The position numbers were made by a program, and so were the translations under genes. A DNA stretch of 64,000 nt from Curtobacterium sp. ISL-83. GTDB lineage: Bacteria; Actinomycetota; Actinomycetes; Actinomycetales; Microbacteriaceae. The DNA lies in the NCBI RefSeq assembly GCF_018613895.1, contig NZ_JAGGPH010000007.1, positions 496,001 through 560,000 on the forward strand. The letters are read 5' to 3'. The number at the start of each line of letters is the position of its first letter. Within the stretch, counting starts at the first letter, position 1. Below are positions 3,613-62,346 of this stretch, piece after piece. The notes under the pieces are model-generated. The model had not been told where the DNA came from. It saw only the letters and a program-made list of their open reading frames with translations, and made no database searches.

Positions 3613-5487
3613 TCAGTTCACCGCGAACACCTGGGCCTGGTTGCCGTTGCAGTCGTAGAGCTGCAGCGCCGTCTGGTTGGCCGTGTTCCCCGACGGGTCG
3701 TCGAGGCACCGCCCGGAGGACGGGTTCAGGATCGAACCGTTGGCCTGCGGGATCCACTGCTGGCCGCCAACGCCGTTGCACTGGTACAGCTCGACGTGGG
3801 TGCCGTTGGCGGTGGCGTTGCCGTCGGCGTCGAGGCACCGCCCGAGGGACCGGAGGGTGTGGTCCGACGGGTTGATCGTCCACTGCTGGTCGAGCGCCGC
3901 AGGCTGCGCGGTCTCGATCGTCAGGCAGTCGTAGAGCTGCACCTGCTGGCCGTTCTGCTGCAGGTCGTCACCGGCGACGTCGACGCACTTCCCGCCCGGG
4001 CCGATGATCGGGACCGCCACGGCGAACTTCTGCGGTGCCGCGCCGTTGCAGTCGTACAGCTGCAGGGCCGTGCCGTTCGCGGTGTTGCCGGACGGGTCGT
4101 CGAGGCACCGGCCGGACTGGGGGTTCTTGATCGACCCGTCGCCCTGCAGGATCCACTGCTGCGCACCGCCGCCCGTGCAGTCGTACAGCTCGAGGTGGGT
4201 GCCGTTGGCAGTGCCGTTGCCGTCTGCGTCGAGGCAACGACCGAGCGTGCCGAGGGTGCCCGTGCCGTAGGCCGTCCCTGACCAGTGCTGGTCTGCGGCG
4301 AGGACCGAGCAGTCCCAGAGCTGGACGACCGCGGTGTTCCCCCCGGTGTCGTCGCCCGCGACGTCGACGCACTTGCCGCCGGGGCCGACGATCGTCGACC
4401 CCGGTCCCCCGCCGGTGCTCACGCCCTGGTAGTTCTGCGCGACGACGTTCGCCTGCACGGCGTTGTCCGCCGCGTCGGTGCTGTAGCCGCTCGTCATGAC
4501 TCCCTCGAAGAAGGACTGCGTCCCCCGGTTCGAGTTGTCACCCCCGGCACCCAGCACGATGGAGCCCTCGAGCTGCATCGGCGAGTAGTTGCCCGCTGGT
4601 TCGGCGCCCTGGTACCACGTGGTCAGGGAACCGCTCTGGCTGTTCCCGCCCTTGAGCGCGAACTGGTTGACGCCGTTGTTCTTGAGCTCGGCGGTCACGA
4701 ACTTGCTGCCGTTGCCGGTGTTCGGCGTGTACGTGGCCGTTCCGCCCTGGAAGACGCCGTTCTCCAGGTCCGCCTGCACCCATGGTCCCTTCCCGGAACT
4801 GCCGGGGGCGTTGAGGGTGGACAGGTTGAGCGCGTCCATGTGCCCCTGGCCGGTGTCCTTCTCCTGGGTCTCGACGTTGCCGAAGTCCGAGCAGCACCCG
4901 TTGTTGCTGTTCGTCCCGCTCGCGACCTCGTACATCGACTCCGGGTTGGCCCCGCGCGCCGTCCCCTTGGCCAGCGTGCTGGAGATCCGGTACGCCACCT
5001 GGGGCGGCATGAAGATCCCGTACGCCTCGTGGCCGCCGACCGTGACCGGCAGCGCCGCTGCGTTCGCCGCGTGGTTGGCCGCTCCGGCATCGCCCGCCGG
5101 AGCGACGGTGAGGTCGTTGTGGTTCGCCGTCTGGTCGTAGATCTTCGGGATCGTGCAGGTGGTGCCCGCACAGAAGGCGTCTTGGGCCGGTGCGTTCGCG
5201 TACCCACCGGCAGCGAGCAGACCGATGTTCGTGGTCGCACCGTCCGAGGCGCGCTGCACCTGGTACAGCGGGCCGTTGTACGCCGAGAAGAGCGCACGCG
5301 TGGAGCTGTAGGCGGCGACGCACGGCGTGCTGGTGCTGCCGTAGACGTCGCACGACGACGCGGTCGCGGCGTCGGCGCTGGAAGCCCCGATGGTGGAGGC
5401 GAACAGGGAGCCGGCCACGAGCGCGAGCGCGCCTGCAGTGGCGAGGAGTTTGCTCCTCCGCCTGGCCGTTGGGTGGAGTCGATGCAT
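3613..5487 (-). CDS. Secreted GH54 alpha-L-arabinofuranosidase with two ricin-type lectin domains
   Basis: A 624-residue exported enzyme expected to cut terminal arabinofuranosyl units from plant arabinans and arabinoxylans. Residues 1-41 are a signal peptide (basic start, hydrophobic core, ASSADA). Residues about 46-352 match the GH54 (AbfB) catalytic domain: TPCVAAYSSTRALFSAYNG, the vicinal CC at 198-199, the likely nucleophile Glu206 in GNVETQ and the likely acid/base Asp317 in GGDNSN. Known fungal GH54 enzymes carry a C-terminal CBM42; here two beta-trefoil lectin (CBM13) domains take that place (about 366-490 and 495-624). They share repeats such as LGRCLDADGN and SGRCLDDPSGNTAN, which shows an internal duplication. 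It has its own LacI operator. Confidence 0.88.
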   Translation of the reverse strand: MHRLHPTARRRSKLLATAGALALVAGSLFASTIGASSADAATASSCDVYGSTSTPCVAAYSSTRALFSAYNGPLYQVQRASDGATTNIGLLAAGGYANAPAQDAFCAGTTCTIPKIYDQTANHNDLTVAPAGDAGAANHAANAAALPVTVGGHEAYGIFMPPQVAYRISSTLAKGTARGANPESMYEVASGTNSNNGCCSDFGNVETQEKDTGQGHMDALNLSTLNAPGSSGKGPWVQADLENGVFQGGTATYTPNTGNGSKFVTAELKNNGVNQFALKGGNSQSGSLTTWYQGAEPAGNYSPMQLEGSIVLGAGGDNSNRGTQSFFEGVMTSGYSTDAADNAVQANVVAQNYQGVSTGGGPGSTIVGPGGKCVDVAGDDTGGNTAVVQLWDCSVLAADQHWSGTAYGTGTLGTLGRCLDADGNGTANGTHLELYDCTGGGAQQWILQGDGSIKNPQSGRCLDDPSGNTANGTALQLYDCNGAAPQKFAVAVPIIGPGGKCVDVAGDDLQQNGQQVQLYDCLTIETAQPAALDQQWTINPSDHTLRSLGRCLDADGNATANGTHVELYQCNGVGGQQWIPQANGSILNPSSGRCLDDPSGNTANQTALQLYDCNGNQAQVFAVN

Positions 5488-59687: not shown

Positions 59688-59714
59688 CACCTGCGGGGGC
59701 TACCCTCGACGATC

Positions 59715-60095
59715 GTGAGTTCTCATCGGAATCGTCGTCGTGCCTCCCGGGTCGTCTCGATCGGGGTGGTCGCCGCGCTCGCCGCGTCCCTGACCGGCTG
59801 CGGCGAAGGAGCCGGCGTCGGCGCGGACTACGCGAAGATCTGCCGCGACAACTCCACCCAGAAGCGGCTGCCCGACAACGACTGCAACAACCACGGTGGC
59901 CACGCGGGCTGGTACTACCTGCACGTCGGCGGCAACCGCTCGACGAAGATCCCCGCGGTCGGCCGAACGGTCTCGGGCGGCGTGACGACGCTGCCGTCCG
60001 GCAAGACCGCGAAGTCGGGCATCTCGTCGCGGGGGAGCTCGGTGTCGAAGGGCGGCTTCGGCGGTTCCGGCGAGCACGGCGGGTTCGGCGGCTGA
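59715..60095 (+). CDS. Small lipoprotein with Gly-rich tail (YgiB-like)
   Basis: A 126-residue probable lipoprotein: basic start, hydrophobic core VVSIGVVAALAASL and lipobox LTGC (Cys29). The mature part has CRDNSTQKRLPDNDCNNHGG (two Cys that could form a disulfide), GWYYLHVGG, then a Ser/Gly-rich C-terminus ending SVSKGGFGGSGEHGGFGG. The KGGFG-type tail and the partnership with a YgiC-type ligase recall the E. coli YgiB-YgiC pair; full homology is not shown. GTG start behind TACCCT (leaderless-like). Its TGA overlaps the ligase ATG by one base, so the two are tightly coupled. It may be the ligase's substrate. Confidence 0.72.
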   Translation: MSSHRNRRRASRVVSIGVVAALAASLTGCGEGAGVGADYAKICRDNSTQKRLPDNDCNNHGGHAGWYYLHVGGNRSTKIPAVGRTVSGGVTTLPSGKTAKSGISSRGSSVSKGGFGGSGEHGGFGG

Positions 60096-61396
60096 TGGAG
60101 CGCGTCGCCTTCACCGAGCGCCCCGACTGGGAACGACTGATCCAGCAGACCGGACTCATCTACTCCCGGTCCGTGCGTGACGACGGCACGACCGTCGACT
60201 ACTGGAACGACCGTGCCGCGTACGTCTTCACCCTGCCGGAGGTCGAGGCCCTCGAACAGCAGACGGAGGAGCTGCACCGGATGTGCCTGGAGGCCGCCCG
60301 GTACCTCGCGAGCGGTGCGCTCGGCACGCTCGGGCTCACCCGCGAGGGGTTCGACCTCGCCGCGTGGTCGCTCGAGCAGCACGAACCCGACGTGTACGCG
60401 CGGTTCGACCTGGCGTACGCCGGGGACGGTTCGCCCGCGAAGCTCCTCGAGTACAACGGCGACACCCCGACAGGCCTGATCGAGGCCTCCGTCACGCAGT
60501 GGCACTGGCTGCAGGACCGGATCCGGTCCGGGGAGCTGCCCGCCGACGCCGACCAGTGGAACGGCATCCACGAGGCGATGGTCGCCCGCTGGCGCACCCT
60601 GTTGCACGAGTCGCTCCGCGCCGAGGAGGGCGGTCGTCTCTTCGTCGCGCACTCGGACCTGGACACCGCGGGCGAGGACTGGGACACCGTCGCGTACATG
60701 CGGGACCTCGCCGCCGAGGCCGGGTGGGAGCACACCGGCATCGAGATGAAGGACATCGGGTGGCACGCCGGTGCGCGACAGTTCGTCGGGAACCCCGAAC
60801 CCGCCGGGTCGTCCCGCAGTATCGCCGCACTGCCCGGCGACGAACCCGGCACCCAGTACCCCGTGATCCGGAACATCTTCAAGCTCTACCCGTGGGAGGA
60901 CCTGGTCTCCGGCGAGGACCGGGCGCAGGGCGACCAGGAGTTCGGCGCGTTCCTTGTCCGCGACCGGGGGCGGCTCGGCCACTGGTACGAGCCCGCGTGG
61001 AAGATGTTCCTGTCGAACAAGCTGCTGCTCGTGGCGCTCTGGCGGCTGTTCCCCGGGCACGACAACCTGCTGCCCTCGTACGCCGACGGACCGCACGGCA
61101 TGACGGACTTCGTCGTGAAGCCGGTGTTCGGGCGCGAGGGTGACGGCATCCAGGTCCACCGTGCGGACGGCTCGGTGACGTCCAACGGGCGCGAGTACCG
61201 GCGTCCGGGGACCGGCGGCGAACGGGTCTGGCAGCAGTACCACGAGTTGCCGGACTTCCCGGGACCGGACGGCCACAACCACCCGGTGCTCGGGTCCTGG
61301 GTGGTCGACGGCGAGTCGTGGGGCGTGGGCATCCGCGAATCCGACGGCCCGATCACCGACTACTGGTGCCGGTTCGTGCCGAACCTCATCCGCTGA
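60095..61396 (+). CDS. Glutathionylspermidine synthase family ATP-grasp ligase (YgiC type)
   Basis: A 433-residue ATP-grasp amide ligase related to the synthetase domain of glutathionylspermidine synthase and to E. coli YgiC/YjfC. Motifs: DLAYAGDGSPAKLLEYNGDT (metal and substrate Glu), IRNIFKLYPWEDLV, SNKLLLVALWRLFPGHDNLL, and VVKPVFGREGDGI (phosphate-binding Lys and Gly-rich loop). The C-terminal GSWVVDGESWGVGIRESDG completes the family profile. It lacks the amidase domain. Actinomycetes of this type do not make glutathione, so the true substrate is unlikely to be glutathionylspermidine. It follows the small lipoprotein gene with a TGATG overlap. Confidence 0.9.
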   Translation: MERVAFTERPDWERLIQQTGLIYSRSVRDDGTTVDYWNDRAAYVFTLPEVEALEQQTEELHRMCLEAARYLASGALGTLGLTREGFDLAAWSLEQHEPDVYARFDLAYAGDGSPAKLLEYNGDTPTGLIEASVTQWHWLQDRIRSGELPADADQWNGIHEAMVARWRTLLHESLRAEEGGRLFVAHSDLDTAGEDWDTVAYMRDLAAEAGWEHTGIEMKDIGWHAGARQFVGNPEPAGSSRSIAALPGDEPGTQYPVIRNIFKLYPWEDLVSGEDRAQGDQEFGAFLVRDRGRLGHWYEPAWKMFLSNKLLLVALWRLFPGHDNLLPSYADGPHGMTDFVVKPVFGREGDGIQVHRADGSVTSNGREYRRPGTGGERVWQQYHELPDFPGPDGHNHPVLGSWVVDGESWGVGIRESDGPITDYWCRFVPNLIR

Positions 61397-61422
61397 GACA
61401 GGTCGCTGAAGCGACCCACCGA

Positions 61423-61466
61423 CGGACGGGAGGCGCGTGGCGGCGCCGCCACGCGCCTCCCGTCCG
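61423..61466. terminator. Perfect 44-bp palindrome between convergent genes
   Basis: The left arm (61423-61444, beginning CGGACGGGAGGCGCGTGG) and the right arm (61445-61466) are exact reverse complements with no spacer, a 22-bp perfect inverted repeat. A smaller hairpin, GGTCGC-TGAA-GCGACC, lies just before at 61401-61416. It shares its arms with 23542-23585 and lies between the ATP-grasp ligase and the convergent Rossmann gene. Confidence 0.85.
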
Positions 61467-61494
61467 GCACCTGGTCCGGACGCGGACGCCGCGG

Positions 61495-62346
61495 CTACGC
61501 GTGTCGGACGCCCGTGCCCGCCAGCACCGCGCGGTAGCCCTCACGGAACGTCGGGTACCGCGGTGCCCAGCCGGTGGACCGCAGCAGCGCGTTCGACAGT
61601 CGTTTGTCCCCGCCGGTCTGTCGTCCGCTGGCGGCTGCCCGGGCGGGGACCGGCACGTCGAGCGCGTCGGCGAGGAACCGGAGCACGTCGTCGAGTCGTG
61701 CCGGTTCGTCATCGGTCCCGAGGTACAGCGGTGCGGGGTCGGGCGTCGTGGCGAGGTGCACGAGGGCCTGGGCGGCATCGTCCCGGTGGATCCGGTTCGT
61801 GTGCGGGGAACGGTCCGGTTCCGGAGCGAGTCGGGCGCTGCCGGATCGCACCTGCTCGATCAGGCGCTCGCGTCCGGGGCCGTAGATGCCGGACAACCGG
61901 ACCAGCACGGCCCCCGGGGCGCGGTGGCGGAGGAGCTGCTCGGCCTCGAGGAGGACGTCCGCCGTCGGTGTCCCGCCCCGGGCCGCGGTGCCCTCGGTGA
62001 CGGTACTGCCGTCGTCGGCGTCGTAGACCGCGGTCGACGAGACGACCAGCACGCGCGGGTCGGACCCAGACGCGGCGATGCCGTCGAGCACGTTCCGCAG
62101 CCCGTCGACGTACGTCGCCCGGTACTCGTCGACGTCACGACTGCCGGCGGCGAACGCCACCACGACGACGGCCGTGTCCGGGTCGATCGTCGGGACCTCA
62201 CGCCGGAGGTCGATGCTCCGGCCGGTGATCGGGGCAGGGATCAGCTCCGCGCGTCGGCGGAGTCCGACGACGTGGTGGCCGGCGGCGGCGAAGCGGAGGC
62301 CGGTCTCGATCCCGAGGTCGCCGCAGCCGGCGATGACGATGCGCAT
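61495..62346 (-). CDS. NAD-dependent epimerase/dehydratase-like protein
   Basis: A 283-residue extended-SDR-like protein. It starts MRIVIAGCGDLGIETGLRFA (GxGxxG-type motif), then LVVSSTAVYDADDG in the place of the catalytic Ser/Thr segment, VRLSGIYGPGRERLIEQ, and NRIHRDDAAQALVHLA, a common C-terminal signature. The YxxxK motif is missing, as in YeeZ-like members. Start ATG 62346 is chosen; a CACGAT box ends 6 bases before. It converges on the ATP-grasp ligase gene with the palindrome between. Confidence 0.86.
   Translation of the reverse strand: MRIVIAGCGDLGIETGLRFAAAGHHVVGLRRRAELIPAPITGRSIDLRREVPTIDPDTAVVVVAFAAGSRDVDEYRATYVDGLRNVLDGIAASGSDPRVLVVSSTAVYDADDGSTVTEGTAARGGTPTADVLLEAEQLLRHRAPGAVLVRLSGIYGPGRERLIEQVRSGSARLAPEPDRSPHTNRIHRDDAAQALVHLATTPDPAPLYLGTDDEPARLDDVLRFLADALDVPVPARAAASGRQTGGDKRLSNALLRSTGWAPRYPTFREGYRAVLAGTGVRHA

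Follow-up and report, generated by a model that had tools for sequence, protein, structure and literature searches.

The closest described counterparts of the gene pair considered here are found in E. coli, where YgiB adjoins YgiC and YjfM adjoins YjfC. YgiC and YjfC carry the RefSeq product name peptide--spermidine ligase, and the title of a 2023 paper by Pederick et al. (doi 10.1021/acs.biochem.2c00592) names spermidine for these enzymes. In the related glutathionylspermidine synthetase (Gss) an acyl phosphate is formed and then passed to the amine. At their C-termini, the lipoproteins read RGGFG…MGG (YgiB) and RGGYG…WGG (YjfM; full end TVSRGGYGRSSSARGHWGG). YgiC and YjfC are termed peptidylpolyamine synthetases in the passages seen of one paper (PMC12568646), and YgiC is described as lacking Gsp activity in those of another (PMC12506659). 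Passages of a further paper describe PSP-linked operons that combine an ATP-grasp ligase, DUF350, DUF1190 and polyamine genes and have links to PspA; there, DUF1190 is described as a metal-chelating lipoprotein (PMC11237479).

In the window, the 64,000-nucleotide stretch of Curtobacterium sp. ISL-83 DNA that was analysed, two forward-strand genes form a similar pair. The first (P0001, 59715..60095) has a GTG start and encodes a membrane lipoprotein precursor of 126 amino acids with the lipobox LTGC and Cys29. Its C-terminal end is VSKGGFGGSGEHGGFGG, or over a longer stretch SKGGFGGSGEHGGFGG, and the conserved tail SVSKGGFGGSGEHGGFGG (residues 109-126; 60039..60092, forward strand) is the proposed acceptor peptide. 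The second (P0002, 60095..61396) encodes a YgiC/YjfC-type ATP-grasp amine ligase of 433 amino acids without an amidase domain. The two reading frames share one base in a TGATG overlap (60093..60097, forward strand), with the TGA at 60093-60095 and the ATG at 60095-60097, an arrangement that suggests translational coupling of lipoprotein and ligase. The junction, GGCTGATGGAGC, is identical in the 13 genus relatives that were read. An earlier note on this DNA had described a lipoprotein starting at GTG 59715, with a GGFG tail and overlapping the ligase gene, and the open reading frames confirm this; the E. coli layout and the tail of YgiB, to which the note had pointed, are likewise as it described them.

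The window pair resembles the E. coli pairs in gene order, in the lipoprotein nature of the first product, in the RGG[FY]G…GG tail and in the family and fold of the ligase; P0001, YgiB and YjfM all bear a [RK]GG[FY]G…GG tail beside a PF03738 ligase. It differs from them in a lipoprotein body that Pfam does not assign to DUF1190. With the PSP-linked operons it shares the ligase, the lipoprotein and a proposed envelope role, but it stands alone, and the passages seen on those operons make no mention of the shared tail (PMC11237479). A sugar transporter gene lies upstream of the pair, and its other neighbour, on the opposite strand, encodes an NAD-dependent epimerase-type protein (both by Pfam); no DUF350 or PspA gene adjoining the pair was seen by inspection. 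P0002 was the only PF03738 gene found in the 3.6-Mb genome, which is 88.8% complete.

P0002 matched the Pfam family PF03738 (GSP_synth) over its full length (E 9.1e-114, profile positions 1-371 of 371). Its best solved relatives by sequence are YgiC (7uk8, 6e-65) and YjfC (7uk6, 6.1e-58), and the predicted model (pLDDT 86.6, pTM 0.88) found the same structures by fold, with YjfC best at E 3.0e-33, followed by YgiC at 6.9e-32 and then Gss. Residues R103, D105, E119, N121, K309, K342, R347, Q380 and R414 align with those of E. coli Gss, YgiC and YjfC, and we take these to be the conserved ATP, Mg and acyl-phosphate residues. The ATP-grasp synthetase fold and the aligned active-site residues are shared with Gss and with trypanothione synthetase. 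Identity to Gss is 24%, however, and the fused N-terminal amidase domain of that bifunctional enzyme is absent, so that the 433 residues represent the synthetase part only; they exceed the 386 of the E. coli ligases, and P0002 has one insert of 21 residues besides some shorter inserts. The nearest named relatives among the matches listed are from Curtobacterium, at 90% ligase identity. No signal peptide is visible in P0002 by inspection. Profile, fold and aligned residues together place P0002 as a predicted YgiC/YjfC-type ligase, which would be expected to ligate an amine to a peptide carboxylate.

The lipoprotein body is less easily placed. By inspection its signal, RRRASRVVSIGVVAALAASLTGC, has a basic n-region, a hydrophobic stretch and a lipobox with its cysteine, and the Cys29 column is invariant in an alignment of 26 partners, made up of P0001 and 25 from the ligase scan described below. 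The earlier note had looked to the DUF1190/YgiB family for this protein, an assignment that Pfam did not bear out; P0001 had no match to any Pfam family at E<=1, and none of the 26 partners matched DUF1190 (PF06693) at E<=0.1. Three NCBIfam matches to P0001 all fell below their cut-offs, and none of the 26 matched NCBIfam at E<=0.001. The body had no PDB fold match at E<=0.001; at 1.2e-6, P0001 matched phrog_24063, a phage family that carries no name. In the predicted model (mean pLDDT 64.6) residues 39-101 are mostly above 80 and both ends are below 50; the low values include residues 108-122 of the tail region, as would be expected for an accessible peptide.

Among nine Proteobacteria/phage partners run against Pfam, seven passed the DUF1190 cut-off and two (L157 and L158) fell short, and three further bodies, P0008 from a downstream Microbacteriaceae gene, P0009 (L108) and P0010 (L110), had no Pfam match. 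The partner bodies differ by Pfam, then, while the tail persists. When the two partner alignments were compared by profile, the probability was 97.1 (E 5.3e-11), but over only 36 columns, comprising the signal region and the first cysteine; the bodies may thus be remotely related. Only two cysteines and the tail's GG-G are invariant throughout the 26 aligned partners, and only one cysteine and two tail glycines in 13 Proteobacteria/phage partners; the tail is the most conserved part of both alignments. Among 14 aligned genus copies two GGFGG blocks are identical and the linker between them varies; a 15th copy (L169) is present in the genus but lies outside this alignment.

To see how general the pair is, four ligases (P0002, L013, YgiC and YjfC) were aligned and the alignment was used to scan genome contigs. 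The best 80 of at least 583 confirmed relatives were kept, of which 79 are actinobacterial and one acidobacterial. In all 80 loci the gene directly upstream bears a tail that is rich in Gly and Ser and contains a G[FIL]G core, and ends no more than 114 bases before the ligase match (median gap 7 bases, at most 20 in 64 of the 80, overlap in five). A strict rule, [RKQ]GG[FYILW]G, holds for 73 of these partners, the other seven reading RDGFG (three), RNGFG (two), RAGFG (one) and SGGFG (one); the tails end in GG in 69, GS in nine, and SS and AS in one each. By comparison, the strict rule held for 3 of 9998 other stop-to-stop ORFs from 159 loci, most of which are not genes, and for none of the 841 further coding-like ORFs that the 80 loci contain. 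These controls rule out chance or composition as the origin of the tail. It is clear that the tail is conserved across pairs, as the earlier note had anticipated, both by the strict rule and in the invariant GG-G.

A pattern search found a lipobox in 66 of the 80 partners, with a false positive in at least one case (L028). Arthrobacter-type partners mostly show a hydrophobic segment but no lipobox; membrane anchoring, rather than lipidation, therefore seems to be the common feature. In the partners of loci L016-L095, a loose and uncontrolled pattern, basic-(A/V)-Ser-x-x-[VIT], precedes the hydrophobic stretch in 56 of the 65 with an assigned start. In one Actinomadura locus (L080) two adjoining frames (3697-4407 and 4314-4994), both with RGGFG tails, stand before a single ligase and are possibly two substrates.

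In samples defined by taxonomy, the ligase was present in 13 of 199 Microbacteriaceae genomes, the window's included, each time with a tail gene beside it; this gene lies upstream in two loci (L001, L013) and downstream in the other eleven. Loci L002-L012 form a second Microbacteriaceae ligase clade with the tail gene downstream, in which the one body tested (P0008) is that without a Pfam match. Across Actinomycetota, 26 of 396 genomes matched the ligase, 25 of them over the cut-off; the match below it is without a tail gene. With the window's genome set aside, 23 of 24 loci over the cut-off passed a looser tail rule, and the 24th (L137) carries the variant TRGGFFSGKSSFGG at its C-terminus. 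The ligase was matched in 20 of 199 Acidobacteriota genomes, 16 over the cut-off. The strong matches there (L096-L107) have an RGGFG tail in 11 of 12, ending in GE in eight and in AS, GS or GG in the others, and in L107 the tail is degenerate; L094 and L096 represent a single genomic site that appears in two samples. Nine weaker matches (L108-L116) include two, L108 and L110, with Gly-rich tails on a downstream protein, and one, L111, with a similar downstream tail that the rule does not pass; the rule found no tail in the remaining six. L108 and L110 are distant PF03738 relatives near secreted or lipoprotein-like ORFs with such tails, and L108 has by eye a DUF350-like ORF upstream. In a hand-picked set of the two E. 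coli loci and 18 plasmid or phage records, 15 of 20 passed the loose rule and 12 the strict one. The tail gene lies farther upstream, with other genes in between, in L145 and L156, and L159 has the variant SRSFGA at its C-terminus; no tail gene was found at L153 (Azospirillum) or at L144 (phage DSS3_VP1), where the record ends soon after the ligase.

Residues of the tail were tabulated for the 144 of 159 loci with a motif-bearing neighbour, a set that includes relatives and one duplicate. An R or K stands two positions before the core glycine in 133 of 141; G occupies the penultimate position in 138 of 144, and the last residue is G in 115, S in 21 and E in eight; the core, the richness in Gly, Ser and Ala and, in part, the R/K position were themselves criteria of selection or anchoring. 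Since the last residue varies in this way, a strict requirement for a C-terminal glycine as acceptor is excluded.

Within the genus, the ligase was found over its cut-off in 15 of 66 genomes, the window's included, and the lipoprotein (E<1e-50) in the same 15; neither gene was above threshold in the other 51. Weak single matches occurred in two different genomes (ligase at 4.4e-5 in G841, lipoprotein at 5.4e-4 in G809). The naive probability of such a coincidence is 3.7e-15, uncorrected for adjacency and ancestry. Here too, as in the 80 best loci, the co-occurrence in related genomes that the earlier note had expected holds. The pair lies beside a homologue of the window's epimerase gene in three genomes (G000, G799, G849), about 27-31 kb from it in three (G791, G793, G836) and 1.5-1.8 Mb from it in three more (G795, G802, G815); in the remaining six the two are on different contigs or the homologue was not found. 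Given that both genes occur in the same 15 genomes and at several chromosomal places, it appears that the lipoprotein and ligase genes change place, or disappear, together. At 59688-61497 of the window the pair sits between the sugar transporter and the epimerase-type gene, and elsewhere in the genus it is found at other sites; in five of 30 loci (L196, L200, L208, L215, L216) the transporter and epimerase genes are directly adjacent without the pair between them.

Phages carry both genes, or the lipoprotein gene without a ligase nearby. In Sinorhizobium phage Phosso and in Aeromonas phage phiAS4, a ligase accompanies a DUF1190 lipoprotein with the tail. Achromobacter phage Motura (L157 1303-4896) has, in order, an annotated homospermidine synthase (saccharopine-dehydrogenase domains in Pfam), a lipoprotein with the tail, the ligase, one small gene and DUF350, and thus what looks like a polyamine cassette in a phage. 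One record filed as phage (L158) has bacterial-looking neighbours. P0001 matched four Arthrobacter phage records and YgiB matched 133 phage records, mostly enterobacterial; of the 113 phage records matched by P0002 at E<=1e-5, none is named for Arthrobacter, Klebsiella, Erwinia, Cronobacter or Citrobacter. Two of the four Arthrobacter records and five of 30 listed YgiB records were read, with 1.5-2 kb of surroundings where the record allowed. All seven lipoproteins (L229 1998-2372, L230 1998-2372, L231 1501-2118, L232 1501-2124, L233 1501-2070, L234 1501-2079 and L235 1501-2115) lie in stretches without a ligase, and all seven keep the RGGFG…GG tail. This would be expected if a host ligase modifies them, though it is not proof, and phages may in this way supply tail-bearing substrates to the enzyme of the host. 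Phage Moon encodes a YgiB-like lipoprotein whose role is given as unknown in the part of the source that was seen (PMC4319498).

The reading that we favour, with moderate confidence, is that lipoprotein and ligase are substrate and enzyme, and that the tail would be capped at its C-terminus by a small amine, most likely a polyamine. The ligase, presumably cytoplasmic, would bind the flexible RGGFG-type tail of a lipoprotein not yet exported, phosphorylate its C-terminal carboxylate (mostly of a GG end, also of GS or GE) with ATP, and pass the resulting acyl phosphate to the amine. As the ligase has no visible signal peptide, this reaction should precede export of the lipoprotein, which would then display, outside the membrane, a C-terminal cap with positive charge; such a cap could bind anionic envelope polymers. 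The links of similar operons elsewhere to PspA, DUF350 and polyamine genes, as described in the passages seen of PMC11237479, suggest a role in envelope stress. In favour of a substrate pair are the tail partner at all 80 best loci and at nearly all strong loci of the taxonomic samples, the persistence of the tail on bodies that differ by Pfam, the shared presence of both genes in 15 genomes of the genus, the active-site residues aligned with Gss, the naming of the E. coli relatives for spermidine, the row of homospermidine synthase, tail lipoprotein and ligase in Motura, and the tail kept by the seven phage lipoproteins. Counted against it are the placement of a ligase that is cytoplasmic by inspection with an exported lipoprotein, for which the timing must fit, the two loci without a tail gene (L153, L144), the degenerate tail of L107, the variable last residue and the metal-chelating role given for DUF1190 (PMC11237479, passages seen). 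The idea of an uncharacterised lipoprotein-tagging system, with which the earlier note ended, appears from these comparisons largely supported. "Uncharacterised" holds with a reservation, for the ligase family is known and its E. coli members have been named for a reaction; that the lipoprotein tail is the substrate is our inference. Neither the shared tail nor the lipoprotein as a ligase substrate is described among the literature matches listed, and a prior proposal is possible.

The identity of the amine is a further question. The window's genome, at its stated completeness, has no match to PF01564 (spermidine synthase) or PF02675 (AdoMet decarboxylase), and PF01564 is missing from 10 of 15 further hand-picked ligase genomes, among them three of Curtobacterium. 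Endogenous spermidine is therefore doubtful as the donor and is not supported in the window's host. Of the 190 ligase loci that were searched, none had a match to E. coli SpeD or SpeE at 1e-4, and nothing useful on Curtobacterium polyamines was found among the literature matches listed. A PotA-like importer ATPase in the window's genome narrowly passes its curated cut-off (357.8 against 355.6 bits), so an imported polyamine is possible. Alternatively, an amine other than spermidine could be the donor, and this must be regarded as a serious alternative.

Another explanation, possible although we think it unlikely, is that the tail is only a docking element, or one that binds membrane, wall or metal, and that the ligase makes a small peptide-amine metabolite which the lipoprotein senses or handles. 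The action of the E. coli enzymes on peptides is known here at the level of a title, DUF1190 has been termed metal-chelating (PMC11237479, passages seen), and the DUF350 and PspA neighbours, together with polyamine synthesis in one phage, would suit a wider envelope circuit. Yet it is the tail that is most conserved in both alignments, it recurs on bodies that are not DUF1190 by Pfam, and lipoproteins from phages keep it where no ligase accompanies them.

A broader proposal, that in a widespread system an ATP-grasp enzyme joins a ubiquitin- or Pup-like Gly tail of membrane lipoproteins to amines, these being non-spermidine or macromolecular in hosts without spermidine synthase, and that tail-bearing lipoproteins of phages are modified by the host enzyme, seems to us decidedly improbable as a whole. 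Very improbable is also a rival in which the C-terminus of the lipoprotein is linked by the ligase to a macromolecule (at a lysine of another protein, an amine of the wall or an amino sugar) and not to a free polyamine, in an envelope conjugation of the ubiquitin or Pup kind. The GG, GS and GE ends do resemble those of ubiquitin and Pup, and spermidine synthase is missing overall from 11 of the 16 ligase genomes tested; against this, the nearest characterised relatives are named for spermidine, and the pair's own neighbours, the transporter and the epimerase-type protein, include no obvious target or deconjugase. Finally, it is scarcely credible that the Gly-rich tails are noise of composition next to an enzyme that is conserved, for although the loose rule is met by 190 of the 9998 background and 21 of the 841 coding-like ORFs, the strict rule separates partners from coding-like ORFs and the tail is kept across phyla and phages.

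The tail, which occurs on membrane-anchored proteins with differing bodies, offers one candidate class of physiological substrates for YgiC/YjfC-type ligases that is testable in E. coli K-12; its gene adjoins the ligase at almost every strong ligase locus that was examined, and phages carry it too. If capping of the tail is indeed the function of the pair, then envelope proteins would be widely modified by an amine cap at the C-terminus, a modification not described in the literature searched, and phages would exploit it.
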